Virus record (IMG/VR): IMGVR_UViG_3300020183_000023
Location: 1 to 64,000 of that record
Length of the DNA: 64,000 bases
Source: a virus
Direction: 5' to 3' (one strand)
The first letter of the stretch is position 1, and each line of letters starts with the position of its first letter. The notes under the pieces are model-generated. The model was given only the letters and a program-made list of their open reading frames with translations, had not been told where the DNA came from and searched no databases. Shown piece by piece: positions 12,764-56,427 of the stretch. The position numbers were made by a program, and so were the translations under genes.

Positions 12764-13114
12764 TCAATTTTTTATAGAAGAACTTTGCTGTTCAATATCA
12801 AGAGAAGAAGATTTTTCTGGTTTTTTTGGATCTTCTAAAATCAATGCTGGTTTTATTCGAGATACTTGTTCTTCAGAATTATCAGAAGGCGCTGAAATTT
12901 TGCGTTCTTCTAATCTTTCCATTGGTCTGATGTACGAACTAGCGTTTTTTCTATTTTCCTCAATATATTTAACAACAGCTTCTGCGACATCGTCATCAAT
13001 TTCTACTTCTGTATCTTCGGAAACAAAAGTAGGCATTTGAGTAATGGTATTCATTAAATGACGACCGCGACGATCATACATGTGATCCATTGGTTTCAGT
13101 TTAATTTTTGCCAT
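12764..13114 (-). CDS. Small charged protein of unknown function
   Basis: A 116-residue hydrophilic protein. The N-terminus is basic (MAKIKLKPMDHMYDRRGRH), the middle acidic (SEDTEVEIDDDVAEAVVKY), and the end Ser/Lys/Glu-rich and likely disordered. GGAGAG lies before the ATG. Its position between fibre genes suggests a virion accessory or assembly factor, but no family is recognised. Confidence 0.5.
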   Translation of the reverse strand: MAKIKLKPMDHMYDRRGRHLMNTITQMPTFVSEDTEVEIDDDVAEAVVKYIEENRKNASSYIRPMERLEERKISAPSDNSEEQVSRIKPALILEDPKKPEKSSSLDIEQQSSSIKN

Positions 13115-13134
13115 TTTATCTCTCCAAAAATGAT

Positions 13135-13377
13135 TTAATTTTTCATTTCTACGTTCAGTTTAACATCAATACCAGATTCAGATTCTAACATTTTCTTTTT
13201 AGCTAAAACCCAATCCGGCCCTAATTTTATTTCGCATTTTTTCCATTCACTTATTTCTTGAATTCCGCCATTTTCAAAATATAAAACCATTTTGTCCTGA
13301 GTTGATTCATATACATGACCAATTACATTCATTTTTTTCCAGAACCATTTTTTCCTATATTTGAAAATATATCTCAT
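13135..13377 (-). CDS. Small basic protein of unknown function
   Basis: An 80-residue protein starting MRYIFKYRKKWFWKK, with a probable small beta fold (VIGHVYESTQDKMVLYFENG) and a charged tail. The ATG overlaps the upstream stop as ATGA, with GAGGGT in front, so it is coupled to the His-rich fibre gene. No family is recognised; an assembly or structural role is only inferred from position. Confidence 0.5.
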   Translation of the reverse strand: MRYIFKYRKKWFWKKMNVIGHVYESTQDKMVLYFENGGIQEISEWKKCEIKLGPDWVLAKKKMLESESGIDVKLNVEMKN

Positions 13378-14915
13378 TTTACCCTCATAATATATAGAGC
13401 AGTAATATATTTAGGTTCTGTTGACGCAGAATTTGTCGTTGGAGACGCTCCGCCTGTTGTCATGTCATTACGCCCATCTAATCCGCCACCATGAGTGGTT
13501 CTTGGCTGAATCCAGTGACGGTGCCAATCTACATGATGCCAGTGCGAACCAGCGCCATCAATTCCAAACTCTCTTGAAGACGGTGGATCGCGTTCGCCTC
13601 GAATGTAATAGTAATTGCTAGTTCGGTCACCAGATCCATCTGGGAAACCTGTAGATGCTACGTTTTCGGTATTGTGCCAGTGCCATCCGGCATCATTAGT
13701 ACGGGCTCCATAGCCATAATAATCTTGGTATGTATTACCCGACCCATCACCATATGGATAATGACCCCATTGAGAACCGTCATTTGACCAATGCGCACCA
13801 TAATAATGATAATGGCCAGGAGATGTATGAGTATGGTTTGGGGTCGTGTGTTGGTGCGTGTTGCTACCACCTGTGGCATTAGAAGTTAAATTGCCCTTCA
13901 AAAATACATCATTATTAATATTAGGAATAGTTCTTCCGTTTAATGGACTAGTTGCATCGGCAATCACTTGACCATTGCACCGCACATAACCAAAAACATC
14001 GGCGGCAGTAGTTGCAACACAAGAATACGCACCAGTTAGCGCAGGCACGGTTGCAATAACTGCGCCTAGCGGTACAAATCCTACTCCAGAAGCTGTACCG
14101 TTAATAGTGATTGAACCATTAATAGTAACGCTGCCATTTGTTGTTAGCGTTCCATTTGTTGTTAATGTTCCATTTGTAACAAATGTGCCTGTAGTAGTGG
14201 TATCGTTTAATGTTTTATTATTAATTATTTGCGAATTTGTTGTACCAACAAATGTATCTGTATTATCGGGCAGAGTCCAAATTCTATTAGAACTGGCTTG
14301 CGACACAATTTTATGCGTAAACGCTGAACTACTTGCTTCTAATGAGATAACACCTAATTTATTTGGAGATTTAAATAACCATTCGTTTCTATCTGAAGAA
14401 ATTTTTATATATGCAGTAATTGCAGAATTTTCTTCAATTTCAAAACCAGAACCAGATGCAGAGGCAATCAAACCATTTTTATTTAATGTGATTAATTTAT
14501 CAAAAATTTCTGTATCGGTTGATTGAATTTTATTAACAGTGCCATATAAATTAACAGTTGTCCCAACTTTACCAATATTTATTGTTGAAGCTGAAATAGT
14601 CCCTAAATTAAGAATATTGCCGTCTGATTCGACTGAGCCGGCATTTTGGATTATAAGATTTTTGGAATATGTATTATTCCAAAATAATAAAGAAGATCCT
14701 AAATTAACTGATAAAGTAGAATTAGGTTCTATCGATGTCAAACTACGACCATTAAATGAAATAAGATCGGCTGATGAATTTCCTAAATCTACATTTGCAT
14801 TAAAGAATGCGTTATTTTGAAAAAATACTTGAGAATCAAAATTTGCAGAACCAGTGACATCTAGATGATGACTAGTCGGATTTTTACCAATTCCTACCCT
14901 GCTTATAATTCTCAT
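13374..14915 (-). CDS. Tail fibre with collar-like core and His-rich tip
   Basis: A 513-residue fibre starting MRIISRVGIGK, the same N-terminal motif as 9588-12743. The middle has fibre repeats (GTLTTNGTLTTNGSVTING, SITINGTASG). From ~residue 300 a collar-like piece occurs (FGYVRCNGQVIADATSPLNG, RTIPNIN). It is followed by ~150 residues extremely rich in His, Tyr, Trp and Gly (HQHTTPNHTHTSPGHYHYYG, AGWHWHNTE, SHWHHVDWHRHW). HxH pairs like these coordinate metal along the trimer axis in T4-type fibre tips, so a metal-stabilised receptor-binding end is likely. AAGGTGAG precedes the ATG. Confidence 0.75.
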   Translation of the reverse strand: MRIISRVGIGKNPTSHHLDVTGSANFDSQVFFQNNAFFNANVDLGNSSADLISFNGRSLTSIEPNSTLSVNLGSSLLFWNNTYSKNLIIQNAGSVESDGNILNLGTISASTINIGKVGTTVNLYGTVNKIQSTDTEIFDKLITLNKNGLIASASGSGFEIEENSAITAYIKISSDRNEWLFKSPNKLGVISLEASSSAFTHKIVSQASSNRIWTLPDNTDTFVGTTNSQIINNKTLNDTTTTGTFVTNGTLTTNGTLTTNGSVTINGSITINGTASGVGFVPLGAVIATVPALTGAYSCVATTAADVFGYVRCNGQVIADATSPLNGRTIPNINNDVFLKGNLTSNATGGSNTHQHTTPNHTHTSPGHYHYYGAHWSNDGSQWGHYPYGDGSGNTYQDYYGYGARTNDAGWHWHNTENVASTGFPDGSGDRTSNYYYIRGERDPPSSREFGIDGAGSHWHHVDWHRHWIQPRTTHGGGLDGRNDMTTGGASPTTNSASTEPKYITALYIMRVK

Positions 14916-17212: not shown

Positions 17213-20200
17213 CTATTCTTGAAAAGGAGCAATACCAGGATCTTCATATTTTAAGTCAGGTAATTGCACTTTTATATTTAATTTTACTCCAACACTTACT
17301 AAAGTTTGCAGAGTTTGTTGAAGTGTAACTCGCACTTGTGTTGCACCTGTAATATACACCGGATATTGTTTTCCGCCTATGCCAATCTCTGGAGCAGATG
17401 GTTTGCTGATAACTCGAATATATGAATTTGCTGAATGCGAATTTTTAAACACATAAGCCGGATCAATTTTTAATTGAGCTGGATTACCTGGAATTGCCAA
17501 ATCATATTTTATAGGCCCTTCTTGTAAAGAATTACCAAAATTAATAATGCAAAATCCAGACGATGGCAAATTTTCTGTAGAATCAATATATAAAATACCA
17601 GGAGATTCAAATGAAACAATTGGTCGTTCTAGTCTAGAAAAATTTGCAGATATTGTATACGGAGAAATTTTCCCAGTAACATCGTATAAATACGACCCAA
17701 CAATATTTTGGTTTTCTGGAATAGAGGCAGAGGCTAAAAATAATGTTGCATTCTTAAAAAAGTTATTTCTATTCCATTGACTTAATGGTTTTGGCATATA
17801 ATATCTAAATTCTTCGCCACCAAAAACACCAGACCGACGACATTTACCATCACGAATAATAACCCAAGTACTGGGGTCTATTGGATTATAATCTAATGGA
17901 ACGCCAATATTTGATTTAAAATAAACAAATTTGTCTTCTTGGCTATGAACTTGTAGATAAATAGTTTTCAAGTAGGTTGCAATACCAAATCTAGAAATTG
18001 GAATAAATCCAAAATCTAATAATTTAACTATTGAACCGTTTGTAAATTTTGCATAACCTCTAGAAATACGATCTGGAAACTCAAAGGCAATATCGGTTTT
18101 TCGAGAGGCGTCTGGTTTAAATATTACGTTAAATCCAAAAATCCATGCACCATTATATTTAATAGGCGCTCCAAGCGGACCATCATTTGCAGTCGGTGTT
18201 GCTACTTTAAATACTGTAGGTGTTGCTAAACTTGGGTTAAATCCACTTCTTAATCTCAGGCGAGTATCAGAAATAATTGAGGCAACTTCTCTGTTTTGAG
18301 TTGTAGACAAGATAATTAAATCATTTGGTTTGACTTCAGATAAAAATTTTGTACCAACACCGTAAACGTTTTTTCCAACCGATGTAATAGTGCCTGAACC
18401 ATATGGCGCAGGGCCAGTTCCTAAAATTTCAAATGAGAATTTTTCTTTATCTAGAGTACGTCTTACTTTATGCAATTTATTGATATCATCACGTAATAAT
18501 TTTCCGTTGACAGATTCAACGGGATTAAAATAACTCGCCATCATAAAAATATCTACATACAACGTTTCTGTAGTATTCATATAACTTAATTGAAATTGAG
18601 TGTCGCTTTGAATTCCAACATTATCTTTAAAAAAGATTCTTGGGCCTTCAAAAATAGAATGCGGCTGCAAATTCATAGAATTAGCTGGCGGCCTAATTCT
18701 AATTTCTGTAATTAGATTATTAGAAAATAAATTATGAATAATTGTAATTGTGTTTTCGCTATTTGGAGAAGCTGGTAATGGCAAATTAATAGAAACAATT
18801 CTAGTAAAATTAGCAAAGACATGTTGATAGTCAAGAACGTAAGTATTAACATTTGCTAATGATTGATGCGGCGCTGAGGTAAATTTTACAGTATTCACAT
18901 CATCAACAATTCTAATACCGTGCAAATTAGAATTAGTATCTGCATCTGCCATCATGAAAGATGTATATATAGTATTAAAATTATGAGTGTATGTAGTTGT
19001 TGTATCTGAGCTAGGATATGTATTGGGTCCAATAGATCTGGTGACTTCGCCGGCTACAACATCTGGATTCATTGAACACATTACAGCTCTTACGAATCTT
19101 TCATCTGGCGTTGGAATACAACGCAGCAATGTACTATTATCTGGATCTTCTGGATCTGGAAGATAATTAAAATAATATTTTTCTTGAGTTAATTCATCGA
19201 TAAATTGAATATAAAGTAATTGTGTATCCATTCCATTTTCAAATGAAACTTCATCCGCATCTGGCGGAATTCTAATATTTTTTATTGTTTTATGTTTAAA
19301 AATAGGCTGGTCAAGATTTACATCTTCAAATTTGACTTCTTCAATATTTTCTAAATTATGGTTTAAACGTGGTGTGTCAATTATTAATTCTGAATTATCA
19401 AGATAACCATTAATAGGATCTTTCATTTGAACAGATTCAAATGCCACCCCACATTCAGTGGCTGATAAATATGGTGTGCTATTTTGAATAGCTTCGTCAA
19501 TAACTAATTCTTGAGTATTTCCAGACGGAACGTTTTTGTTATTATAATAAAAATATTTTTGTATAAATCCATTAGAAAATCTAGCCGAGCGAAGAGCTAC
19601 AACTCCAGAATCTGGAAAAGAGTTTGGAAACGGAATAATTAATTTAGATGGGTTAATATCTAATAATTGAGCAGTTTGGTTTCTAAACCTAGATGCTCCT
19701 TCTTGTTTTTTTCTTACAATAGGGGGAATTACTGGAATATTAACATCTACAATTCCTGATCGAGCTTCAGAAACGTATGCAAAAAGATCGTTTGTGAAAA
19801 TAGTGCGAAAATCTTTTGTTGTGATCGCAAAATTTGAAGATTCAGATTGAGTAAAATTTACATTTGTATATAAAAAATTAAATGTTTTTATTTCAAAATA
19901 ATCATAACCGCAATTAATTATTTCATAAGTTCCATTTAATTTTGAAAATTCAACAAATGTTGAATCAACTAAATTAGAAATAGAAATATGATCCCCAATA
20001 TCAAGTATTGGTAAATTTGGATTTGGTCCACCAATCCATGTGAATCGAACTACGTCAGAATAAATTGCGTCAGAATAATGATTTACGCGCCACTCTGTTC
20101 CTACAGAACTGCATGAATCTTTATATCCTTCAAATTTTAATTTATTTTGTACTGATCCGCCAATTACTTTGATTTTAGCAGAAATGCCAAAATCTCTACT

Positions 20201-38945: not shown

Positions 38946-38974
38946 TTGACTTTTTGTATATTTTAATATATTGT
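38946..38974 (+). promoter_or_regulatory. Candidate sigma70-type promoter for amidoligase operon
   Basis: The 86-base divergent gap contains TTGACT (38946-38951), a 17-base spacer and TATTGT (38969-38974) on the plus strand, ~48 bases before the ATG at 39022. Unlike the structural-gene promoters it has a recognisable -35, so it may be read by host polymerase early in infection. Confidence 0.4.
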
Positions 38975-39021: not shown

Positions 39022-39945
39022 ATGGCAATTGATTTAAATAGAATGACATTTGGCGCTGAACTAGAACTTGGCGATGTTGATACAAAAATTATTTTACCGC
39101 CAGGAAATAAATGGTGCGATAAAGATGGATCTATTTGTAATTCCAACGGAACCGCAAATGATCCAAAAAAAATCTTCAATCGATATGGTGGCGAAATTCA
39201 AATGAAACCAGAAAATTCGCCAGAAGAACTTTTGCATGCAACCAAAGATATCTATTCTTTGTTTTCTAAAAAACATTTCAATTATACCACTAATTTACAT
39301 GTTCATATTAGGGTTCCTGGTCTAAAAGAAGACTTAGATGCATTGAAGAAAATTACAGAATATTTACGCAAATATGATGAAGAAATTTATGAACTTATAG
39401 ACCCAAATCCATTTCCAGAACGACAATTAAAATTTTCTAATCCAGACTTTTACAACGGAGCAGTCTCTAGGTGGCGAAGAAGAAATAAATCGCATCGCTA
39501 CCGCGTTTCAGAAAAAGTATATAAATTAATGATGAATGCTAAAACTCCTCAAGAATTTTACGAAGCCCATGCGCCTAAAAATAGGTTTGGACAGCCCATG
39601 TGGCATGTAGTTGTCAGGGCCGGTGTAAATTTAAAGCAGGTGTTTGAAGACACCGAGACTATTGAATTTAGACATTTCACTATGTCTCCAGATATGAATA
39701 AAATGCTTTCGGCCTATAAATGGCCAAAATTATTAATGGAAGCTATTTTTATTACTGGAGATGCGCCAAAACAAATACTAAAGAAAAATCCAGAATTAGA
39801 ATTTCAAAAATTTCATGATTATGATCACAATTTAGATAAAATTTTCAAAAAAACAAATGTTTATCACAATAAACGATCTGTTGTTAGAGAAAATTATAAA
39901 ACTTTGATTGAAGAAGGACTTATTGATGAGCAATCACTCTACTAA
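39022..39945 (+). CDS. Amidoligase-family (COOH-NH2 ligase) enzyme
   Basis: 307 residues resembling the putative amidoligase family, relatives of glutamine synthetase and gamma-glutamylcysteine ligase. Features seen are TFGAELEL (9-16, first metal-binding acidic strand), GGEIQMKPENSPEELL, TNLHVHIRVPG (~90-100) and TIEFRHFTMSP (~215-225), the typical order E-x-E, N-x-H-x-H, E-x-R. The family is thought to use ATP to form amide bonds on peptides or small molecules. TGGAG precedes the ATG. The 3' end overlaps a phosphatase-like gene by 20 bases. The substrate is unknown. Confidence 0.7.
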   Translation: MAIDLNRMTFGAELELGDVDTKIILPPGNKWCDKDGSICNSNGTANDPKKIFNRYGGEIQMKPENSPEELLHATKDIYSLFSKKHFNYTTNLHVHIRVPGLKEDLDALKKITEYLRKYDEEIYELIDPNPFPERQLKFSNPDFYNGAVSRWRRRNKSHRYRVSEKVYKLMMNAKTPQEFYEAHAPKNRFGQPMWHVVVRAGVNLKQVFEDTETIEFRHFTMSPDMNKMLSAYKWPKLLMEAIFITGDAPKQILKKNPELEFQKFHDYDHNLDKIFKKTNVYHNKRSVVRENYKTLIEEGLIDEQSLY

Positions 39946-40414
39946 TTCTTGGTCTAGAGCAAAAAAAATATTGTTTATTTGCACAGGCAATAAATTTAGA
40001 AGCCCATCTGCAGAACATATTTTAAAAACATTATCGCCGAATCTAGAGGTAAAATCAGCTGGAACTTCAGCTAATTCTGCCAATAATCATCTGATCGCTA
40101 AAAAAATGCGTCGTTGTTTGATTGAAATAGGCTATGAAGAGCCATCAATTAAATCGCAACACGTTTCTAAAGAATTACTAGAATGGGCCGATCTTGTGTT
40201 TTATATGGCGCCAACTCACATAAAATATTTAACAGAAAACTACCCAGAATTTGCCATTAAATATCATGGTTTGTATACATTTGATAAAAGCAATGGCTTT
40301 GAATTAAATAGAATCGAAGATCCTGCATTTATCAAAAATCATTCAGATGTTTTGCAAGTTACTAAATTAATTGAATTATGTGTAAAACGTGCAAAAGAAG
40401 TTTTAAACTTCTGA
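39926..40414 (+). CDS. Low-molecular-weight protein phosphatase-like protein
   Basis: 162 residues from ATG 39926, chosen because GAAGGA lies in front; a longer reading would start further inside the amidoligase gene. The signature CTGNKFRS at residues 19-26 is the C-x5-R phosphate loop of the LMW tyrosine phosphatase/arsenate reductase fold, and IEDPAF near residue 133 supplies the expected Asp-Pro. VKSAGTSA and the helical body also fit. It could dephosphorylate a protein or a phosphorylated intermediate. Overlap with the amidoligase implies coupled synthesis. It converges with a minus-strand ORF and overlaps it by 12 bases. Confidence 0.75.
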   Translation: MSNHSTNSWSRAKKILFICTGNKFRSPSAEHILKTLSPNLEVKSAGTSANSANNHLIAKKMRRCLIEIGYEEPSIKSQHVSKELLEWADLVFYMAPTHIKYLTENYPEFAIKYHGLYTFDKSNGFELNRIEDPAFIKNHSDVLQVTKLIELCVKRAKEVLNF

Positions 40415-40589: not shown

Positions 40590-41126
40590 TTACTTAATTT
40601 CTTGCATAGTTCTAAGATTTCTAACAGCTTCTTCAAGTTCACCTTCTGTCGCAATCCATGGCGGGACACAAACCATTTTATGTTGTATTTTACCATAATT
40701 GATTTGTTTCAAAAACGGTTTTAGCAATTCTTGTTCGTCTTGATGGCGGTTTTCTTTTAAATATGAAATATTAATAATATTTTTATCGAGCATTCTTGAC
40801 AAACAGGCCATACAGGGCTGTACACTGACTAGAAATTCGTATTGATGTCGATGAGGAAATTCATTCATTTTATCAATTAAATCAATTTCTGCATGTCGAA
40901 TCAAAAACTTTTTACTAGGATTTTTATCAATTGATATTTCGTTTTTTGCAAAATTATTTGATGCAAAAAAATTAATCAATTTATTTACACCAAAGGCAAT
41001 GACTGAATTAGTTGAATTGTCTATTGCTATTGCAACAACTTGTACAAGAGGATCGTCACTGCGTTTTTTAAGGGCTTCAAAGAGGACTTCGGTATTAACT
41101 ACTGGATAGCTTCCGTAGACAAACAT
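40590..41126 (-). CDS. Deoxycytidylate deaminase-like zinc protein
   Basis: 178 residues with the cytidine/dCMP deaminase zinc site: H78-A79-E80 in LIRHAEIDLID and C105/C108 in VQPCMACLSRML. Length and order fit phage dCMP deaminases, which turn dCMP into dUMP. In phages with hypermodified thymine, dUMP feeds hydroxymethylation to 5-hydroxymethyl-dUMP, so this gene fits the neighbouring modification genes. It overlaps the upstream P-loop kinase by 28 bases, with AAGGA before the ATG. Substrate choice (dCMP rather than another cytosine compound) is inferred. Confidence 0.75.
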   Translation of the reverse strand: MFVYGSYPVVNTEVLFEALKKRSDDPLVQVVAIAIDNSTNSVIAFGVNKLINFFASNNFAKNEISIDKNPSKKFLIRHAEIDLIDKMNEFPHRHQYEFLVSVQPCMACLSRMLDKNIINISYLKENRHQDEQELLKPFLKQINYGKIQHKMVCVPPWIATEGELEEAVRNLRTMQEIK

Positions 41127-41737
41127 TCTTTAATTCCTTGTTGTAGTTTTTCAACTACTTGTTCGGGTGTATCCTCGAAGTCCACTTTTACTAATGTGAC
41201 GGGCGCACGGCATAAATCTATAAAATACCCTACGCACATTTTTGCTCTATCTGTAAACACTTGAACATTGTTAAATGTTAAATCAGGAAGACGCTCTTCT
41301 ACAATACCAGCATTTTTACGTCTGATAGACAATCGTTCTCTGATTTTTTCTACGGTAAAGTCATAATGCACTACTACTACACGAATTTCTTCTTTATGGC
41401 GATACTCATTGACCATTTCTACCCAACGAGCAGTGGACATTACACCATCGACAATAACTGTATCCGAAAGCGCCAGGGCGTCGAAAAAAGCGGTTCTGAC
41501 AAGAGATGGCGTTGTGATTGAGTCTGTGCCAGAATTTTTATTGCCAATCAACACACAATTATCATATTTGACAATACTATATTTTTTCTCAATAACTGCG
41601 CCTCTATTAGGCATGCGCTTTTTAACAAAACGTCCTAATTGAGAAATTTCTTGCCCGTCACCTTGGCAAAAAGTATTTCTAGTTGTTGTCTTGCCAGTAG
41701 CTCCGGCACCCATTAAAAAAATAGCAACTTTAGTCAT
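41099..41737 (-). CDS. P-loop kinase, candidate 5-hydroxymethyl-dU DNA kinase
   Basis: 212 residues with a Walker A GAGATGKT at 10-17 and an Asp strand DTVIVDGVMSTARW that can act as Walker B. An Arg-rich lid follows (IRERLSIRRKNAG). It resembles small P-loop nucleotide kinases. In thymidine-hypermodifying phages a P-loop kinase phosphorylates hydroxymethyl-uracil in DNA before an amino acid is attached, and the position next to a transferase-like gene and FAD enzyme suggests this role. It could also be a deoxynucleotide kinase. AGAGGG lies before the ATG. It overlaps the genes on both sides. Confidence 0.6.
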   Translation of the reverse strand: MTKVAIFLMGAGATGKTTTRNTFCQGDGQEISQLGRFVKKRMPNRGAVIEKKYSIVKYDNCVLIGNKNSGTDSITTPSLVRTAFFDALALSDTVIVDGVMSTARWVEMVNEYRHKEEIRVVVVHYDFTVEKIRERLSIRRKNAGIVEERLPDLTFNNVQVFTDRAKMCVGYFIDLCRAPVTLVKVDFEDTPEQVVEKLQQGIKECLSTEAIQ

Positions 41738-42104
41738 GGAAGCCCTCTATAAAATCTTGATTAATCTTGTGGCATTTAATACAAACACGATTACCATTAT
41801 GCGAATAAAATTGAGTATTACAACGTAAACAATTTCGATATTTTGGAGGGCACGCATTATGCTCTTTAAAGAATTTTTCATCAGCTCTTTTAAGTTCTTC
41901 TGTTAATTCTTTATGTCGTTGCTTCCTTCGTACCGAATTTTTCTCTTTATTGTTTTTAATCTTTTGTATAACAAAATTCCAGTCTAAATTATTTTGGGCA
42001 ACATAATTTTTAACAAATGATTCTACATCATCCGTTACTGGAACTTCTAAATTAAAGGCTTTGCAAAATAATTTTAATGTTATTTTAGTTTCATTAATAA
42101 TCAT
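41730..42104 (-). CDS. Zinc-ribbon protein of unknown function
   Basis: 124 residues. The C-terminal part has two CxxC pairs (NCLRCNTQFYSHNGNRVCIKC) forming a likely zinc ribbon. The N-terminal part is helical and charged. I use ATG 42104; a GTG codon directly before it is an alternative. The stop overlaps the kinase start by 8 bases. A DNA-binding or regulatory role in the modification operon is possible but not shown. Confidence 0.55.
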   Translation of the reverse strand: MIINETKITLKLFCKAFNLEVPVTDDVESFVKNYVAQNNLDWNFVIQKIKNNKEKNSVRRKQRHKELTEELKRADEKFFKEHNACPPKYRNCLRCNTQFYSHNGNRVCIKCHKINQDFIEGFHD

Positions 42105-42113
42105 CACACGCTC

Positions 42114-42440
42114 TTATTCTAAATCTGCACCCATGTCTACAACACCTTCTTTTTGCAATAACGAAAGTGCTAGCACTCTTTTAGAATCTGCGAAGTTTTT
42201 TGTTTCATTAAATGCACTACGGAATGTCTGCAAAACTTCTTGTGCTGCTTTGTATTCTGAATTAGATTCCATTTCTTTCTTAGCCTTCAACACATGAGCG
42301 TTTTGCTCTGCAACAATTTGCTTCAATTTGTCAGGAGAATATGTTTTAACCATTTGCAATTCATCGTAAGAATAGTTTTTTACAAATGTTTTTTCAATAT
42401 CAGAAAGATGGCTGTATTTATTTGACTTGCTTTTCTTCAT
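42114..42440 (-). CDS. Small helical protein of unknown function
   Basis: 108 residues from ATG 42440, which has GTGGAGG well placed upstream; an in-frame reading starting 15 bases earlier lacks this. It is charged and helical (KLKQIVAEQNAHVLKAKKEM, ADSKRVLALSLLQKEGVVDM), starting 2 bases after the previous stop. No family is recognised. It is co-transcribed with the DNA-modification genes. Confidence 0.5.
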   Translation of the reverse strand: MKKSKSNKYSHLSDIEKTFVKNYSYDELQMVKTYSPDKLKQIVAEQNAHVLKAKKEMESNSEYKAAQEVLQTFRSAFNETKNFADSKRVLALSLLQKEGVVDMGADLE

Positions 42441-42441
42441 A

Positions 42442-43296
42442 TTAAGCCTCCACAAACAATAATTGTTTATTTTTTATATACGCGGTTTTTTCTTTTTGAG
42501 TAAAATGATGTTGCAAAAATTTATGATCAAATTGACAACTGTCAATTAAATTCCAAAAATCTTTGTCTGAAAAAATTTCTGGTTTTTTTAGGGCTAAAAA
42601 TTCATTGATATCATGGCCAATAACATAAGAACCCTTGTGCAAAATTTTTGGAACTTTACACAGGCAACTTTCTACTTGACCAATTGGCGCAGACCATTTT
42701 TTAGATAACTCCCATCCAAACTCCTCCCATTTTGTTAATATTTTTCGGTCATACTTTTGGTCAATTCCATATAAATATCTGAGTCCAAAAATTGGACCGG
42801 TGTTTTTATTTGGGTCTGAATTTTCAATTCCTAATCCATGAATACGCAAATTATTGTATCCGAGTGTTTGATCTAAAACTTCGCAGATTTTATAACAAGC
42901 CCAATCACCAAAGTACGGAATCGTTTTAAAAAGCTCTCTTCCGCTATCAAAATTATGTTCTTTTGTAACTAGCAGCGGTTTAATTTCCAACCATCTCTGA
43001 TAGGCTTTTTGAAAGTTTTCTAAACGTCGTACTTGCGGTGTTCGCCCTCGTTCCATACCAAATTTAGTAATTTTATTAAAACAGACAGTTTCTGTACTAT
43101 CAGAAACCATCCGCATGAAATGAATCATGCTTTCTATAGAATAGTAGTAGACATACATGAAAACGGCAGTCTCTGGATCAAACTTTTCATGTTGAATAAT
43201 TTTTTGTAAAAACGGATAAACAGGGTCAACATCTTTGGTTTGAATCAATGCAAGACTGGCTTTTTCAAAATCACCATAATTAAATAGCTGATGCAT
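42442..43296 (-). CDS. Candidate amino-acid:DNA transferase / aGPT-pyrophosphorylase superfamily protein
   Basis: 284 residues from ATG 43296; the open frame begins at a TTG 27 bases earlier. The body is helical with conserved-looking segments: DPVYPFLQKII, a FGMERGRTPQVRRLEN basic stretch, IPYFGDWACYKICEVLDQTL and IENSDPNKNTGPIFGLRYLY. These resemble the alpha-glutamyl/putrescinyl-thymine pyrophosphorylase superfamily of phages such as phiW-14, SP10, M6 and ViI, a DNA-glycosylase-like helical fold. Those enzymes replace a pyrophosphate or phosphate on hydroxymethyl-uracil in DNA with an amino acid or amine. The neighbours (P-loop kinase, FAD enzyme, dCMP deaminase) support this. The call is from memory of motifs. 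Confidence 0.5.
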   Translation of the reverse strand: MHQLFNYGDFEKASLALIQTKDVDPVYPFLQKIIQHEKFDPETAVFMYVYYYSIESMIHFMRMVSDSTETVCFNKITKFGMERGRTPQVRRLENFQKAYQRWLEIKPLLVTKEHNFDSGRELFKTIPYFGDWACYKICEVLDQTLGYNNLRIHGLGIENSDPNKNTGPIFGLRYLYGIDQKYDRKILTKWEEFGWELSKKWSAPIGQVESCLCKVPKILHKGSYVIGHDINEFLALKKPEIFSDKDFWNLIDSCQFDHKFLQHHFTQKEKTAYIKNKQLLFVEA

Positions 43297-44188
43297 AGAC
43301 TTGCGCCTGAATTGCGTCTGCAATTTCTTTTATATAGGAAGGTGCGTGTCGTAATCCGTTTGCAGATTTAGGCGTGATGTACATTTGATTACTTTCTTGT
43401 ATAAAGGCATATGGAAATTCGGAAACATATGCGGGACGCCAACCAACTGTAGGAGATCCCTCTGGTTGAATATCTACTTGTCCGTCTGTAACTTTTTTAA
43501 TATGAGAAATAATATTTTCCACTTTACTGCCGATTTCTAAATCTTTTTGATTTTTTTGATAAATAAAATGTGTTCCAAGGTAATAATCATCAGTCATTGG
43601 TCGAGGATACAAATATGCATTAATAAAACGACCTTCTTTAGCATTCAGACACATGCGCGGGTATTTATCAAACACTTCTCCAGAAACTTTGCATGGAACA
43701 GACCATCCCCATCTATAATCAGTGGGACGATGTTTATGGAATCCATGAGCATGGACAATTAAAGCATCTGATTGGCAATAACCAGGTCCAAATAATGAAA
43801 AGAAAAAATTTCTAGAAAAATTAACAAATTTTTGTACATTTACATGCATAGAATGTTTATTAAGAATTTTAATATTGCCAATACATTCTTCAACTTTTAG
43901 ATCTTTTGAATTATTTCCATGCGGGATACTTTTTTGTGTAAATCCATATGGTACAGATTCTGCAAATAATTGTATTGGCATAGTTTCATCGGGGGCAAAT
44001 TTTTTTATCCAAAGATTATAATTTAAATTATCAAATGAATCTCCAGATGGATAAATGCAACCAGTGCTTGCCTTCCAAGCTGATGGATGATCTTCGTCAT
44101 GCCATGTAAAATCAATTTTTCTTTCTGTTAGTTCCCATGCAAGCAGGCTGCCAATTAATCCAAAGCCTTTAATATGTACTTTAAGCAT
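43280..44188 (-). CDS. FAD-dependent amine oxidoreductase-like protein
   Basis: 302 residues. The N-terminus is a Rossmann dinucleotide site (IKGFGLIGSLLAWELTE, GxGxxG at 8-13, with acidic HDED at the end of strand 2), then ASTGCIYPSGD. The C-terminus (SPTVGWRPAYVSEFPYAFIQ, SANGLRHAPSYIKEIADAI) fits the D-amino-acid-oxidase/glycine-oxidase-like group. In M6-type phages an FAD enzyme of this kind oxidises the amino acid attached to thymine in DNA, so a similar role is likely here. Alternatively it could act on a free amino acid. It overlaps the transferase-like gene by 17 bases. Confidence 0.65.
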   Translation of the reverse strand: MLKVHIKGFGLIGSLLAWELTERKIDFTWHDEDHPSAWKASTGCIYPSGDSFDNLNYNLWIKKFAPDETMPIQLFAESVPYGFTQKSIPHGNNSKDLKVEECIGNIKILNKHSMHVNVQKFVNFSRNFFFSLFGPGYCQSDALIVHAHGFHKHRPTDYRWGWSVPCKVSGEVFDKYPRMCLNAKEGRFINAYLYPRPMTDDYYLGTHFIYQKNQKDLEIGSKVENIISHIKKVTDGQVDIQPEGSPTVGWRPAYVSEFPYAFIQESNQMYITPKSANGLRHAPSYIKEIADAIQAQVYASAI

Positions 44189-48382: not shown

Positions 48383-49201
48383 TTAAATTGAAAAGTCGAT
48401 GATATCTTGCAAATTAAAATATGCTTTTTTAGTAAAATTACTGACGGATACTTTGCCAACAAATAAACAAAGTTTATGGCGATAAGAATTCATTTTCTTA
48501 CTGACTTTTGGGTCGTATTCAAAAACTTTCTTTTTAATTCCACTGATAGGATCATCAACTAATCGCTCTTTTGGCCACATTCGAACTTTTACGTCTTCGG
48601 CCCCATCAAAAATTGATATTTCAATAAATTCTTTGCCGTCATATTTTTTAGTATTGTACCCATTGAAATATCCAAAAAAAGCCTTTCGCCACATGTTTGT
48701 TTTAACAGAAAACTCACCAATAGTTCCGCTGTAGCTCTTGGCGATAGCTACTCTGTCTTCAACGTTTTGCCCATTTTGATTAATTGTAAATTGGCGCGCA
48801 AATGGAAATACTTCTGCAAATTCTGCTTTTGTTTGCCTAAATCCTAATTGTTGAATTGCAGATTGATATACATTACAAAAATTAATAGAAAAAATTGGAT
48901 TAAAATCAGCAAGCCAAAGCTGCCGATCAAAATCAGATGAAATTTTTTCCATAGGAATTCTTTGATCTTTAATCTTTGGAAATCCGGCAGTAGATTTGCA
49001 TGTTTTCTTAAGCTGTTCAATCAGCTCAAAACGCTGAGAAACAGTCAATTGTTGGTCAAAACAATCATCAAAAGCTCCGCTCATAATCAATGTAATGATT
49101 GGCGACACCATGATTTTAATCTCGCCAGTTTCATAATTTTGTTTAATGTCTTTAACTTTTGTTAAAAACTCTTCCCATTTATTCAATGTAAAGAACCTCA
49201 T
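48383..49201 (-). CDS. Candidate detached C-terminal part of DNA polymerase III alpha
   Basis: 272 residues from ATG 49201, overlapping the gp46-like stop; a TTG directly before it is an alternative. The start FFTLNKWEEFLTKVKDIKQN, then MVSPIITLIMSGAFDDCF and SQRFELIEQLKK, resembles the DnaE segment where 'F.S..DF..R' and 'L..LI..GAFD' precede the OB fold. The later part (KAFFGYFNGYNTKKYDGKEF, ISIFDGAEDVKVRMWPKERL) looks like an OB fold. This is the portion missing from the polymerase gene at 30028-32946. It may bind the main subunit and contact template or SSB. The resemblance is moderate. Confidence 0.55.
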   Translation of the reverse strand: MRFFTLNKWEEFLTKVKDIKQNYETGEIKIMVSPIITLIMSGAFDDCFDQQLTVSQRFELIEQLKKTCKSTAGFPKIKDQRIPMEKISSDFDRQLWLADFNPIFSINFCNVYQSAIQQLGFRQTKAEFAEVFPFARQFTINQNGQNVEDRVAIAKSYSGTIGEFSVKTNMWRKAFFGYFNGYNTKKYDGKEFIEISIFDGAEDVKVRMWPKERLVDDPISGIKKKVFEYDPKVSKKMNSYRHKLCLFVGKVSVSNFTKKAYFNLQDIIDFSI

Positions 49202-51176
49202 CAAAATAATGATCTTGCGTATAATGCTCGATCATCAAAACTAATTTACGATCTGATATTTCTTTAATTGCATCAATACAAATTTCTTGTGTGGCAATGT
49301 CACAGCCTTGTAAACTTTCGTCAAGCATCAAAATCGGACTGTTGTACATATCTGATAAAGCCAATTGAAACGCTAATACTAGCCTGCTGAATTGACCACC
49401 AGATAAATCGTCCTCACTCAATGTATCTAATACTTGCCCATCACAAATAAGTTCTAGGTTAATTGTGGAAATTTCTTTATCTTTAGATTTTAATTTTCTG
49501 GAAGTCTTTAATTGAGCTTTTACTCGTCCATCCAAAAGAATATCTAGCCAATATGTAGCGCGAAAGTTTATTTCGTCAATAATTCCCTCAAGTGATTCGA
49601 GCATTGACTTTTGCCAAATTTCTGCAATTTCCGAACATCCAGAAAATAACTTTTTAGCTTCTTCTCTTTCGGATTCTAATTGTTTTATTGTTTTATTGAG
49701 AGCAATCAGTTTATTTTCATATTCATGAATTTTTTCTGAAATTTCATTATTTTTAGTTATTTGCCCTAACACTGATTCTGATTCAATTCGTTTGGCAGAG
49801 TACAAATTAAGTTCGGATGAATGTTTTTCTATTTCTTCGTAAATTTGTTGAATTTCTTGTTCTAATTCAACAATTGGAATCAATGTTTCATTTGCCTTCA
49901 AAATTTCATCAGCTTTATTCTTTTTCTTTTGTAGTTGGTTTAATGAATTTTCTGTTTCCTCTAAAACAAACTTATGTTTTTGTATATCTTTTAGAGTTTC
50001 TTCTAGTTGATTGGCAGCTGTTTCAAATGTTTTGATATTTTTTTTGCATTTATTGATTTTGTTTTTTATTTCATCTTCAAAGTTTGATATAGAGATAGAT
50101 TGAATTGCATCATGATGTGATAAAAAATCTTCACAATCAAGTTTAAGGGATAAAATTTTGTCAATAATTTCTGGTTCGCCGTACAGGTTTAACCCATCTA
50201 TTGTTTCAAAAATTTTATTTAAAGACGTGTCCTTTTGTTCTTTATATCTTTCTAAATTTTGCAATTGGTTTTGTAACCATTCAAGTTTATTGCATTCAGA
50301 TTTTAAATTCTTTATTTGTAAATTGCTCTCAGCAAGTTGGTTCTGGATGCTTTGTTCTTTATATTGAGATAAATGAGCTTGGCACATCTTTTGTTTATCA
50401 GTTAATTCTTGTAAAGAGTCTGAGTATTTTTTTAGAAAATCTGAAGCCGGTTGGAAAACTTCTCTTGCGGGATGGTTTTTATTATCAGTCAAGACTTTTC
50501 TTTTAATTTTTAAATTCTGAACTTTTTCTTCCAGTTTTCCTATTTGAGAATTATATTTTTTAAGTTTAGTTTTTATAGATTCTTCAGAATCTGTGATATT
50601 GAATAAAGTTTGTTTTAAAGATTTTATTGCATTTTTAATTTCGTCTGTCTTTTCTTTGACATTATTTTCTTTAGTTTCTAATTGATTTAGAAGAGCACCT
50701 ACTTCTTTAATTTTTTCTGCAATTTCTTCTTTTTGCTTAAATGGATCAGAGCCTTTAAAAGCAAGTTCGTTAATCAACTCCATTTGTTCAGAAGGAGAAA
50801 GATTAATCAAACTATTCTTTTGATTTTGGGCAACATAGGAACAAATATCAAACTCTGTTTTATTCATTCCTAGAGTATTTTCGATTTCGTTCTGCGCCGT
50901 AGATGAACTCAGTCCATTTACTTTTAAAATGTTTGGGCCGCGGCCTCTAACAATTGACAAGCCAAAACCGGCTAAATCAACTTCCGTTGTTTCTTCATTC
51001 CATGTTGTAATTTTGTTTTGTTTACCATAAAGAGCATAGCTAACGGCTTTAAAGATTGATGATTTTCCTACGCCACTTTTACCATCAATTCTTACCATTC
51101 CAGTTTCTGGAAATGAAAAATCTGCATTTGAATGATTACGGAAGTTTGTTAAAGATAAATTGATACGATTCTTCAA
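49179..51176 (-). CDS. gp46: gp46/SbcC/Rad50-like ATPase subunit
   Basis: 665 residues. Walker A GKSGVGKSS at 32-40, a long coiled coil (~170-520), then the ABC signature DDLSGGQFSRLVLAFQLALS and Walker B ILMLDESLQGCD. No CxxC zinc hook is seen in the middle of the coiled coil; cysteines occur singly. It should pair with the gp47-like nuclease to resect DNA ends. It begins with TTG at 51176, with AAAGGAA upstream, and overlaps the gp47 gene by 41 bases. Confidence 0.9.
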   Translation of the reverse strand: MKNRINLSLTNFRNHSNADFSFPETGMVRIDGKSGVGKSSIFKAVSYALYGKQNKITTWNEETTEVDLAGFGLSIVRGRGPNILKVNGLSSSTAQNEIENTLGMNKTEFDICSYVAQNQKNSLINLSPSEQMELINELAFKGSDPFKQKEEIAEKIKEVGALLNQLETKENNVKEKTDEIKNAIKSLKQTLFNITDSEESIKTKLKKYNSQIGKLEEKVQNLKIKRKVLTDNKNHPAREVFQPASDFLKKYSDSLQELTDKQKMCQAHLSQYKEQSIQNQLAESNLQIKNLKSECNKLEWLQNQLQNLERYKEQKDTSLNKIFETIDGLNLYGEPEIIDKILSLKLDCEDFLSHHDAIQSISISNFEDEIKNKINKCKKNIKTFETAANQLEETLKDIQKHKFVLEETENSLNQLQKKKNKADEILKANETLIPIVELEQEIQQIYEEIEKHSSELNLYSAKRIESESVLGQITKNNEISEKIHEYENKLIALNKTIKQLESEREEAKKLFSGCSEIAEIWQKSMLESLEGIIDEINFRATYWLDILLDGRVKAQLKTSRKLKSKDKEISTINLELICDGQVLDTLSEDDLSGGQFSRLVLAFQLALSDMYNSPILMLDESLQGCDIATQEICIDAIKEISDRKLVLMIEHYTQDHYFDEVLYIE

Positions 51177-52119
51177 GCTTTCTTTCCTTTATATAATCGG
51201 AAAAACGTTCTTCAAAACTCTTTGTTTTTGTATTATGTTTTCGTTCACTGGAGGTTTGTTGATCTTCTGAGATGAATTTAAACTTGACTAATTTTGCTAA
51301 ATTTTTATAATCTTTTGTTTTCTTAAACGCAATAATATTAAATGATGTATCTTTGATAACAATTCTGTATTCGTTTTCTGTATCTACCGCAAAATTTTTG
51401 ATATCTGCAATATCAACTTGACGTGTAATAAATTTAGGCATATTTAGATCAATAGCTTTTTCAACGGTGTAATTACCATTATCAATATTAATCAAATAAA
51501 TTGATTTATTTTCTTCTTCACTAAATCTGTGTTGGCAAGGCGTTCCGGGATACCAGACTCTGTCTGCTACTGTGTGTTCGCCATGAATGTGCCCGCTAAT
51601 AATTTTGCAATTTGGAATATCATCGCCATTTTCGCTTTTAAGACCACCGTCCATTAAGCAGCCTTTAAATTCTTGATGCGCAAACAATATATGTGGCTTG
51701 CTACTAAGCATGTCAACAGCGGTTTGGAATGATCCAGGAGGGCAATATGGAATAAACCCTAAAATCGTATCAGAAACTATTTTTTCCGTTGGCCGATCTA
51801 CAACTATATAATTTTCTATTTGTTTAAATGGAGTCAAGGCATGAAATCTTGGCAAAAAAGTTTTACTATCATTCATTTCATGATTACCGAGAATATGAAT
51901 GATTTTTGTATTTCTGTTTACACACAAAAACTCTGAAAAAATAGTTAGGCAATCGTTACGAACAACGTCATGTTCATCAAATACATCGCCAAGCAAAACG
52001 ACGGATTCTGGATTATATTCTTTAATTTTTTCTGTAATTGTTTTAAGTAGAAGCTCGGAACGTTTTAGTCTGCGATGAGAAAGATGAATATCACCAATGA
52101 CTAAATATTTTTGATGCAT
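51136..52119 (-). CDS. gp47: gp47/SbcD/Mre11-like nuclease subunit
   Basis: 327 residues. It has the calcineurin-like phosphoesterase motifs of Mre11: VIGDIHLSHRR (D10, H12), VLLGDVFDEHD, IHILGNHEMND, LFAHQEF and SGHIHGEH. The C-terminal ~60 residues are charged and helical (KTKSFEERFSDYIKERKLEE), a likely docking site for the gp46-like subunit. AAAGGAG precedes the ATG. It is the first gene of the minus-strand recombination operon; the 125-base gap before it is divergent with the primase gene and holds possible promoters on both strands, none clear. Confidence 0.9.
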   Translation of the reverse strand: MHQKYLVIGDIHLSHRRLKRSELLLKTITEKIKEYNPESVVLLGDVFDEHDVVRNDCLTIFSEFLCVNRNTKIIHILGNHEMNDSKTFLPRFHALTPFKQIENYIVVDRPTEKIVSDTILGFIPYCPPGSFQTAVDMLSSKPHILFAHQEFKGCLMDGGLKSENGDDIPNCKIISGHIHGEHTVADRVWYPGTPCQHRFSEEENKSIYLINIDNGNYTVEKAIDLNMPKFITRQVDIADIKNFAVDTENEYRIVIKDTSFNIIAFKKTKDYKNLAKLVKFKFISEDQQTSSERKHNTKTKSFEERFSDYIKERKLEESYQFIFNKLP

Positions 52120-54167: not shown

Positions 54168-54835
54168 TTGTAATGATTACTGATGATATTTACAATAAAA
54201 GTATTTATCCTCAATGTGATTTTAGTATTATCGAATTGCCTATTGAGGCAAAAGACGCTAAAAAGATGTATCAGCAATTATTCAAAACTCAAAAAAACAA
54301 TCATATTTCGTTACAATTTAGTCGTTTGCCTAAAAAACTTAGGCTAAAGGCTATGAGTAACGCTTTTATTGGTGACGAAGTCGGATTTAAATTTTATGAT
54401 TATGTGACTATTGTTTCGCAACAGCCCTGCAGACAACCGCCTAATCATCTTTCTCCTCTTGGCGAAACGGTAATTTTATTTACTAAAAACGAAGAACCAA
54501 ATGTAAAAACTACTAATTGGTTTAATACAGAAGTGGGAGATTGTACAAATGTTTGGGATGTAACACTGCAACCAAAAGAAGGGGTCGGGCAAACAGTTTC
54601 TAAAAAATTTGCATGGGAGATTGGATATCTTTTAGCAAATTTAGCTAGTCCATTAATTTGTAGAAAATTTCTTGTTTTAGGTCTTCCTGAATTGTCAATG
54701 GCAAAATTTGCATTAAATTCAAATTTGCAAATGTATGCGATTACATCAGATGAATTTACCGCAAATAAAGTTATTAAAGAATACGATAAATCGCTAAAAG
54801 ACGAGGTTAGTAATAAAACATGGCAAAAGAAATAA
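54137..54835 (+). CDS. Uncharacterised protein, possibly a degenerate methyltransferase fold
   Basis: 232 residues, overlapping the primase end by 31 bases, with AGGAAC before the ATG. The middle (NHLSPLGETVILFTKNEEPN ... NVWDVTLQPKEGVG) and the later FLVLGLPELSMAKFALNS recall the order in phage N-methyltransferases, but the catalytic DPPY-like motif and the normal DPFGGSGT glycine loop are not seen. It may be an inactive relative or simply unrelated. It overlaps the GroEL gene by 16 bases. Confidence 0.4.
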   Translation: MQVTSADGRIVVMITDDIYNKSIYPQCDFSIIELPIEAKDAKKMYQQLFKTQKNNHISLQFSRLPKKLRLKAMSNAFIGDEVGFKFYDYVTIVSQQPCRQPPNHLSPLGETVILFTKNEEPNVKTTNWFNTEVGDCTNVWDVTLQPKEGVGQTVSKKFAWEIGYLLANLASPLICRKFLVLGLPELSMAKFALNSNLQMYAITSDEFTANKVIKEYDKSLKDEVSNKTWQKK

Positions 54836-56427
54836 AGTACGGACAAGAGGCCAGAGCAAAGGCTGTAAAGGCTTTAGAAGAAATTGCTGCAATTGTAGGA
54901 AGTACTCTTGGGCCAGGCGGAAAAACTGTTCTGTTAAGTCGGCGTAATTCTGCTGATGAAATTTCTGTTAGTCACACAAAAGATGGTTTTAATGTTTTGA
55001 ATGGCCTTCGATATACCGACCCTGTTTTTGATGCTGTCCATAAACTTTGTTTACAGGCCAGTGCAAATTCTGTGGTCTCTGCTGGAGATGGTACCACATC
55101 AACCATTGTTATGGCCGCTGCGTTTGCAAATGCATTGGTCAATAGTGGAAATAATCCGCAGGCAGCGGCCAGAAAATTTCGTAAAGAAATACAAAGAGCT
55201 ATTGAGGCAATTAAGCAAGAGTGTATTTCTGGTGAAGAGGCTATTTATAAAGTTGCTCTTACTAGTAGTAACGGAGATGAAGAACTTACCTCCTATGTAC
55301 TAGAAGCAATTCAACAAAGCTCTGCTTACGGAACTGTAATTGTTGAAAAAAATCCAATGTCTAGAGAACCATTTAAAATTGATAAAGAATATGGATACCA
55401 AGCGGGTACTGGATATAGTTATTACCTACCATTTGCTCAAAGCATTCGACCAAATTTAGCAAATAACGCTGAATTTACTATGAAACAATGTTTTGTAATG
55501 CCATATAATGGCGATTTAATGATGATGTCACAAGTAAAGCCAATGCTAGAAACATTAGCTCGTAATCATCAGCAATGGAATTTATTGATTGTATGCCATC
55601 AAGTAGCAGAAGATTTAGCTGCAAACTTAGCGTATTTTAATCGCCAGAATCCACAAGTAAAAGTGTTTGTGGTTCGCACAACACCATCGGCAGAACTAAA
55701 TGGGCAGGTTCAGCAATTAAATGACATTGCCGCATATACTGGCGCTAAAGTTATGGATGGTGGTAGTTTGACGCACATTACTATAGAAGACTTTGGCGAT
55801 TGCAAATCTGCACGTATTGGGTCGCACAAAACATTTTTACTTGGCCGATCAGATCGAAATTGGATTATTGAACGTGCAGAACAAAATGAAGAATCTGCAA
55901 GATTAGCACCAAGTCAGATGGATAGAGATATCATTAATTCACGAAACGCATCATTAACAGGTGGCTGCGTGAAGCTAATTATTGGCGGGACGCTATTCAG
56001 CGACTTGCAAGAACGTGCCGACAGAGCTGATGATGCGATTAAAGCTTCACAGGCATGTGGGCGGAGTGGTGCTTTGCCAGGATGTGGTGCTTCATATATG
56101 CGGGCAGGACAACTTGGCGAAGTTTCAGAAGAAGTTTTAAAAGCTCTTTCAAGTATTCATTCGGTAATCATGGAAAATTTCGGTGAGACGCCTATGAAGC
56201 AATTTAAAAAATCAGAAACTTATTTTATTACAGAAAATAATATCAAAAAAGTGAGCAATTTTGTTGATTATGGTGTTGCAGATAGTTTTGAGACAATTAA
56301 ATCTGTGATTACAAATGCTTTTGAATTAGGATTATTAGTGACTAATCTTGGTGGATATAGCCTTGAAGCTGATTTAGACCAAATGGAGCAGGCCGCTAGA
56401 GCAAAAGAAATTTTAAGAGGCGTATGA
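54820..56427 (+). CDS. groEL: GroEL-type chaperonin
   Basis: 535 residues, close to the usual ~545. It has GSTLGPGGKTVLLS, a TKDG motif, AGDGTTSTIVMAAAFANALV (ATP site), a divergent apical domain, and RADDAIKASQACGRSGALPG near the end with the catalytic Asp of the RVDDA motif. The Gly-Gly-Met tail of bacterial GroEL is absent. Phage chaperonins help fold major capsid or other virion proteins. No GroES gene is visible nearby, so it may use the host's or act alone. GAGG precedes the ATG. Confidence 0.93.
   Translation: MAKEIKYGQEARAKAVKALEEIAAIVGSTLGPGGKTVLLSRRNSADEISVSHTKDGFNVLNGLRYTDPVFDAVHKLCLQASANSVVSAGDGTTSTIVMAAAFANALVNSGNNPQAAARKFRKEIQRAIEAIKQECISGEEAIYKVALTSSNGDEELTSYVLEAIQQSSAYGTVIVEKNPMSREPFKIDKEYGYQAGTGYSYYLPFAQSIRPNLANNAEFTMKQCFVMPYNGDLMMMSQVKPMLETLARNHQQWNLLIVCHQVAEDLAANLAYFNRQNPQVKVFVVRTTPSAELNGQVQQLNDIAAYTGAKVMDGGSLTHITIEDFGDCKSARIGSHKTFLLGRSDRNWIIERAEQNEESARLAPSQMDRDIINSRNASLTGGCVKLIIGGTLFSDLQERADRADDAIKASQACGRSGALPGCGASYMRAGQLGEVSEEVLKALSSIHSVIMENFGETPMKQFKKSETYFITENNIKKVSNFVDYGVADSFETIKSVITNAFELGLLVTNLGGYSLEADLDQMEQAARAKEILRGV

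Follow-up and report, generated by a model that had tools for sequence, protein, structure and literature searches.

The window analysed here, a stretch of 64,000 nucleotides, is part of a virus record of 106,653 bases and holds two overlapping genes on its plus strand. The first (39022..39945) encodes a protein of 307 amino acids, AML, which its reading frame, AF2 model, Foldseek matches and residues identify as a predicted amide (COOH-NH2) ligase of the GCS/Amidoligase fold, and the second (39926..40414) encodes a 162-amino-acid phosphatase of the LMW-PTP type, recognized by PF01451, its catalytic residues and a structure match to YwlE. The phosphatase frame opens at a TTG at 39908, and an ATG preceded by AAGGA lies at 39926; with this ATG as the start, the two genes overlap by exactly the 20 bases (39926-39945) that the original prediction had reported together with the positions of both frames. 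The E-x-E, H-x-H, EFRHF and C-x5-R motifs that it listed are all found in the translations, and the pair does converge on a DNA-modification operon on the minus strand (40590-44188). The early-type promoter that the two genes were said to share did not hold up: upstream, the plus strand offers a single candidate (38946-38974) with 9 matching bases out of 12, promoter-like sites are fewer in the region than in its shuffles, and a shared promoter is not above chance.

The ligase carries the motifs E13-x-E15, GGE58, LH93-x-H95 and TIE215FR217 (the latter within E215-F-R-H-F), which would correspond to the metal and ATP residues of GCS. Across 19 homologues, 28-88% identical to the window ligase, no substitution occurs at E13, E15, E58, H95, E215 or R217, H93 is nearly invariant, and the motifs (ExE, a further E, HxH and E-x-R) are present in 87-89 of 89 ligase sequences. 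Because these residues are kept in the homologues, the metal/ATP site is not missing; the original prediction had allowed that they might prove absent on alignment, and they are present. The Amidoligase_2 model (PF12224) gives the protein 17.3 bits, under its curated cut-off of 22 bits, and the four members scanned, this one included, all stay under it (16.5-21.9 bits); we have filed the family as a putative sister clade of Amidoligase_2, not as a member. A PDB search with the ligase profile found no sequence match, so a fold search was required. With the structure predicted by AF2 from 18 homologues (pLDDT 91.4), all of the top 50 Foldseek matches are GCS, YbdK, glutamine synthetase and the relatives Dop and PafA (best E 7e-4, probability up to 0.99), and the model also resembles annotated phage amidoligases. 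By fold and residues, the protein is thus predicted to belong to the GCS-like COOH-NH2 ligase superfamily and to carry out ATP-dependent amide synthesis.

The phosphatase matches Pfam LMWPc (PF01451) with an E value of 8e-17 (62.2 bits, cut-off 23.2), and its nearest solved structure is the arginine phosphatase YwlE. Its loop reads C-T-G-N-K-F-R-S (C-x5-R), and a DP occurs late in the protein; C19-x5-R25-S26 and the general acid D132-P133 are invariant in 14 phosphatase sequences. Across the family, in which the loop is mostly CHGNxNRS, the loop pattern is found in 78 of 80 members and the late DP in 79 of 80. By these residues the enzyme is predicted to be catalytically intact, and its substrate can only be guessed. 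In phosphotyrosine-specific LMW-PTPs, a tyrosine follows the DP; here, the position is usually occupied by A, N, H or G, and this variability would speak against phosphotyrosine activity. Although the catalytic Cys, Arg and Asp are shared with LMW-PTPs (PF01451) such as YwlE and Wzb, phosphatases of the window type differ in being limited to ligase-bearing cassettes in our surveys.

The minus-strand operon encodes a dCMP-deaminase-like protein of 178 amino acids (40590..41126; PF00383 at 26.9 bits, above cut-off), a P-loop kinase that is probably a 5-hmdU DNA kinase (41099..41737), a divergent amino-acid:DNA transferase of the ADDT/glycinyltransferase family (42442..43323) and an FAD oxidase of the D-amino-acid-oxidase fold (43280..44188; AF2 pLDDT 80.8). 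The kinase gives a profile-profile match to the HMUDK kinases of modification cassettes over 181 columns (probability 94%). The ADDT reaches a sub-threshold 18.3 bits with PF18724 and aligns with cassette ADDTs in HHalign (probability 95.8%), and these in turn match the "Glycinyltransferase" of PDB entry 8z2m (E 3e-79). For the FAD enzyme, a sequence search of the PDB gave nothing meaningful (one spurious cytochrome match); its Foldseek matches include DAAO and glycine oxidase as well as the 5-Nalpha-glycinylthymidine lyases of Pseudomonas phage PaMx11 (8z2o/8z79), and its model suggests that it is probably an amine-releasing enzyme resembling a glycinyl-thymidine oxidase or lyase. In 7 clusters that lack the ligase, a member of its family comes after the ADDT.

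Elsewhere on the record, the helical HMUDK protein (HMUDK_hel) is encoded at 83668-84441 (E 5e-26). No TS-family dUMP hydroxymethylase was found on the window's contig; a 169-kb contig with an identical ligase carries a TS homologue, for which a thymine or a hydroxymethyl product is possible. TAA stops within the TS match of this sister contig were considered and rejected, the TS reading frame being open. From the kinase, ADDT, FAD enzyme, HMUDK and TS, the phage would seem to produce a base derived from hmdU and from an amino acid. On the minus strand of the window's contig (G000, region 83052-84546), the HMUDK_hel gene sits between terminase genes, distant from the modification operon, and the gene beside it resembles a 2OG-Fe(II) oxygenase by eye. 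Also by eye, the gene at G000 100011-101078 resembles PLP aminotransferases of fold type I and could serve either the modification pathway or metabolism, and the same phage has GroEL-like chaperonin and Rad50/Mre11-type nuclease genes (window 54820-56427 and 49179-52119) and ribonucleotide reductase genes (G000 64953-67626).

The recurrence of the pair was followed in three surveys, each limited to the best 80 relatives (out of 145 for the ligase, 84 for the phosphatase and 178 for the ADDT), with ligase members grouped into clusters at 80% identity; the search profiles were built mostly from the very loci studied, many contigs are fragments, and reading frames were called mechanically. Among the best 80 of 145 ligase relatives, thymidine-hypermodification genes lie beside 45 of 49 clusters and queuosine-type, preQ1-making genes in 2 of 49, and the remaining two have neither gene set, one of them being a 4-kb fragment. 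In the same survey, a phosphatase adjoins the ligase or lies within about 700 bases of it in 39 of 49 clusters, and the two genes most frequently overlap by 4 bases, as they do at 73 of 116 loci when near-copies are counted. Conversely, the ligase is present at 74 of 80 phosphatase loci (best 80 of 84). The 62 clusters of the ADDT survey (best 80 of 178) divide into 13 with ligase and phosphatase, 2 with the ligase only and 47 with neither, and none of the 62 has a phosphatase without a ligase (P 1.3e-11), which indicates that the phosphatase depends on the ligase and not the reverse. The pair is a recurrent module. The survey that the original prediction had suggested thus returned a strong co-occurrence with ADDT-type genes, and the pair is not widespread without DNA-modification genes.

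The ligase is common in metagenomic virus contigs, where its 145 relatives were found, and occurs in just two of the 50,697 phage records searched, those of phage Simon and Vibrio phage 2.275.O. In Simon (62% GC, from raw sewage), only the overlapping pair is clearly homologous to window proteins, and it adjoins ADDT, HMUDK_hel and TS genes. The ADDT of Simon is at 18464-18946; the gene at 13072-14346 was rejected as a candidate ADDT, being HMUDK_hel. Two near-identical contigs (L025:9141-12882 and L030:9076-12820) show the order PALP, ligase, small ORF and radical SAM, with a second radical SAM gene upstream and no recognized thymidine or 7-deazaguanine modification genes, and possibly represent another base chemistry.

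A phosphatase is missing from 12 of 63 ligase clusters and is thus not essential to the chemistry. A radical SAM gene is present in 6 of these 12, compared with 3 of the 51 phosphatase-bearing clusters (P 9e-4). Loci without a phosphatase that tend to carry a radical SAM gene include L014, L026, L030, L074, L103 and L223; in L014, L026 and L223, it comes directly after the ligase, that is, in the usual phosphatase slot. At five other loci (L125, L133, L134, L135 and L138), the phosphatase is inverted relative to the cassette and still lies between ligase and ADDT.

The company that the ligase keeps bears on what it may act upon. The DAO gene of the cassettes matches PDB 8z2o/8z79 (E 1.5e-76), a flavin-dependent lyase acting on 5-Nalpha-glycinylthymidine. 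In none of 101 ADDT clusters do any two of the following four enzyme types occur together, against an expectation of 23 double occurrences: this lyase/DAO, the window-type FAD enzyme, the class II glutamine amidotransferase (GATase) and the PALP-type PLP enzyme, which mostly comes with a radical SAM gene. The ligase is found with all four and, outside that set, with QueF. We read these mutually exclusive enzymes as alternative routes to an amine; this is firm only for the lyase, on grounds of homology, and for QueF. The GATase, found together with the ligase in 23 of the 101 clusters, may supply ammonia and make aminomethyl-dU directly. As a standalone gene (L057:4337-4990, about 23 ADDT clusters), it is regular where the cassette has a second ADDT type.

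A second exclusivity concerns acetylation. The 47 DAO clusters include 26 with the ligase, 13 with a GNAT acetyltransferase, none with both (P 1.4e-6) and 8 with neither, as counted with a GNAT profile built from ligase-free cassettes, by which divergent acetyltransferases could be missed. Of the 15 GNAT loci listed, 13 have this gene between DAO and kinase, which is the usual slot of ligase and phosphatase. The two enzymes thus usually share a slot, exclude one another and presumably acylate the same amine; the GNAT differs in using acyl-CoA, in its unrelated fold and in having no phosphatase partner that we have seen.

The pair has also been found beside a different chemistry. Record G012 (L022) encodes FolE, QueC, QueD, QueE, QueF and a TGT-like (transglycosylase-like) protein and carries the pair, in the order QueF, a 99-aa ORF, ligase, phosphatase and QueE, yet no thymidine-modification genes were found on it, hmdU kinase and TS included. 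Its ligase nests among those of the DAO/lyase type (support 100/99), from which we conclude that the pair moved between chemistries; only two QueF contexts were found, and the phosphatase is in only one. The Pfam TGT model gave no match to a DpdA in the QueF phages, whereas PHROGs gave a TGT-like match. QueF makes the aminomethyl group of preQ1, and Dp-1 and HVTV-1, phages with QueF-family genes, contain dPreQ1 in their DNA (PMC6884629). Lyase and QueF share one outcome, a CH2-NH2 group on the base, and we therefore propose that this amine is what the ligase acylates.

The fold and residues of the ligase, its linkage and exclusivity, and the homology of the lyase-type cassettes to a solved glycinyltransferase and lyase are all observed. 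Since the pair recurs beside genes that place amines on bases, a further group is probably attached to the amine, which is one of the two roles offered by the original prediction; the other, modification of a host protein, now looks unlikely. We consider it probable, though well short of certain, that the pair is a tailoring module in the hypermodification of DNA bases, the ligase acylating the aminomethyl amine of the base as an alternative to acetylation. What we infer is that this amine is the acceptor, that the product is an amide and that the steps run in the following order. The 5-hydroxymethyl-dU in the DNA of the window phage would be phosphorylated by the P-loop kinase and the helical HMUDK protein, the ADDT would displace the phosphate with an amino acid, probably glycine, and the FAD enzyme would trim this oxidatively to 5-aminomethyl-dU; for the window, this scheme relies on an ADDT under the Pfam cut-off and on an FAD enzyme whose family differs from that of the solved lyase. 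The GCS-fold ligase would then use ATP to convert a carboxylic acid into an acyl phosphate and join it to the aminomethyl nitrogen as an amide, taking the part of the GNAT acetyltransferase in sister cassettes but being able to use free acids, for instance amino acids. The phosphatase would be a dedicated partner of this step. The acyl donor and the phosphatase substrate are guesses, the leading one being that the phosphatase strips a phosphate from the donor or from the group once installed, or else disposes of an acyl phosphate that has stalled. In a bolder version, to which we give somewhat less than even chances, the module is portable and base-agnostic and aminoacylates or peptidylates DNA, placing on the aminomethyl group of 5-aminomethyl-dU or of dPreQ1 either an amino acid or an acid in phosphorylated form, from which its partner phosphatase then removes the phosphate.

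Several other readings were weighed. An unlikely one, but the one that survives best, reverses the polarity, so that a carboxylate which the base already carries, such as that of glycinyl-thymidine, is activated and joined to ammonia or a free amine. Such polarity is proven for CmoY, the DNA amide ligase of Synechococcus phage S-B43 (PMC12783734), and the glutamine amidotransferase in 23 of 101 ADDT clusters is a possible ammonia source; it is in GATase cassettes that the ligase could most plausibly amidate glycinyl-thymidine in this way. Nevertheless, the ligase is present in lyase cassettes, where the FAD enzyme would remove the needed carboxylate, and beside QueF, whose product is an amine without one, and the GNAT that replaces it acts on amines by family. 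A slightly less likely idea is that the phosphatase has nothing to do with ligation and serves to reset the pathway, taking the phosphate off leftover 5-phosphomethyl-dU. Most phosphatase-bearing cassettes do have a 5-hmdU kinase, but so do most of the 47 ligase-free ADDT clusters (best 80 of 178), none of which has the phosphatase, and the phage of L022 has one with no recognized hmdU kinase or TS.

We regard it as improbable that the target of the pair is a protein, of host or phage, or a small metabolite, and that co-regulation is all that links the pair to the operon. LMW-PTPs normally act on phosphoproteins, the window pair lies on the strand opposite to the operon, and Iyer in 2009 is said to have proposed, in general, that phage amidoligases modify peptides and the cell wall. 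Such a target would not lead one to expect that hypermodification cassettes house 45 of 49 ligase clusters (best 80 of 145), that ADDT cassettes never show the phosphatase without the ligase (best 80 of 178) or that the ligase is never found together with the cassette GNAT. Finally, although phages commonly carry amidoligase-fold proteins, an ordinary amidoligase next to a stray phosphatase is scarcely credible for a pair that recurs in 39 of 49 clusters (best 80 of 145), most often with a 4-base overlap, and is kept in Simon, where no other window protein has a clear homologue.

The tailoring reading can be set against the closest known systems. The ADDT (8z2m) and FAD lyase gp47 (8z2o/8z79) of the PaMx11 5-NmdU pathway are close homologues of the enzymes in ligase-bearing ADDT-DAO cassettes, whereas the window FAD enzyme has the same fold and is of a different family. 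The published PaMx11 pathway reportedly ends at the free amine, and we know of no GCS-fold ligase or phosphatase step in it. With Amidoligase_2 (PF12224), GCS and YbdK, the window ligase shares the fold and metal-site residues, but ligases of its type form a separate clade tied to DNA-modification cassettes. To our knowledge, amide ligation on DNA has so far been known only with the opposite polarity, in CmoY. Like the proposed ligase, CmoY makes an ATP-dependent amide on a DNA base (5cxmC-glycine amide), but it belongs to the asparagine-synthetase family and acts on a base carboxylate, on cytosine, and its description mentions no phosphatase (PMC12783734). We rejected a CmoY-type assignment for the window ligase, which has the GCS/GS fold and no asparagine-synthetase-type domain, so the two are analogous at most.

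Our best reading is thus that the pair is a new tailoring module on a known type of DNA modification. Such a decoration of DNA appears to be undescribed, with the reservation that priority is uncertain and that the thymidine-hypermodification literature may already mention a cassette amidoligase. Should this reading prove correct, the ligase would offer a means of coupling acids to amine-bearing DNA, and its phosphatase partner would represent an extra chemical step. The reading predicts a set of unseen modified bases in more than 60 phage lineages, just two of them among the 50,697 annotated phage records, and suggests that pathways of separate chemistry meet at a single aminomethyl handle, extended in each case by the same enzyme. 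In the bolder version, amide-extended bases would constitute a class of DNA modification that surveys of thymidine and 7-deazaguanine modifications have missed.
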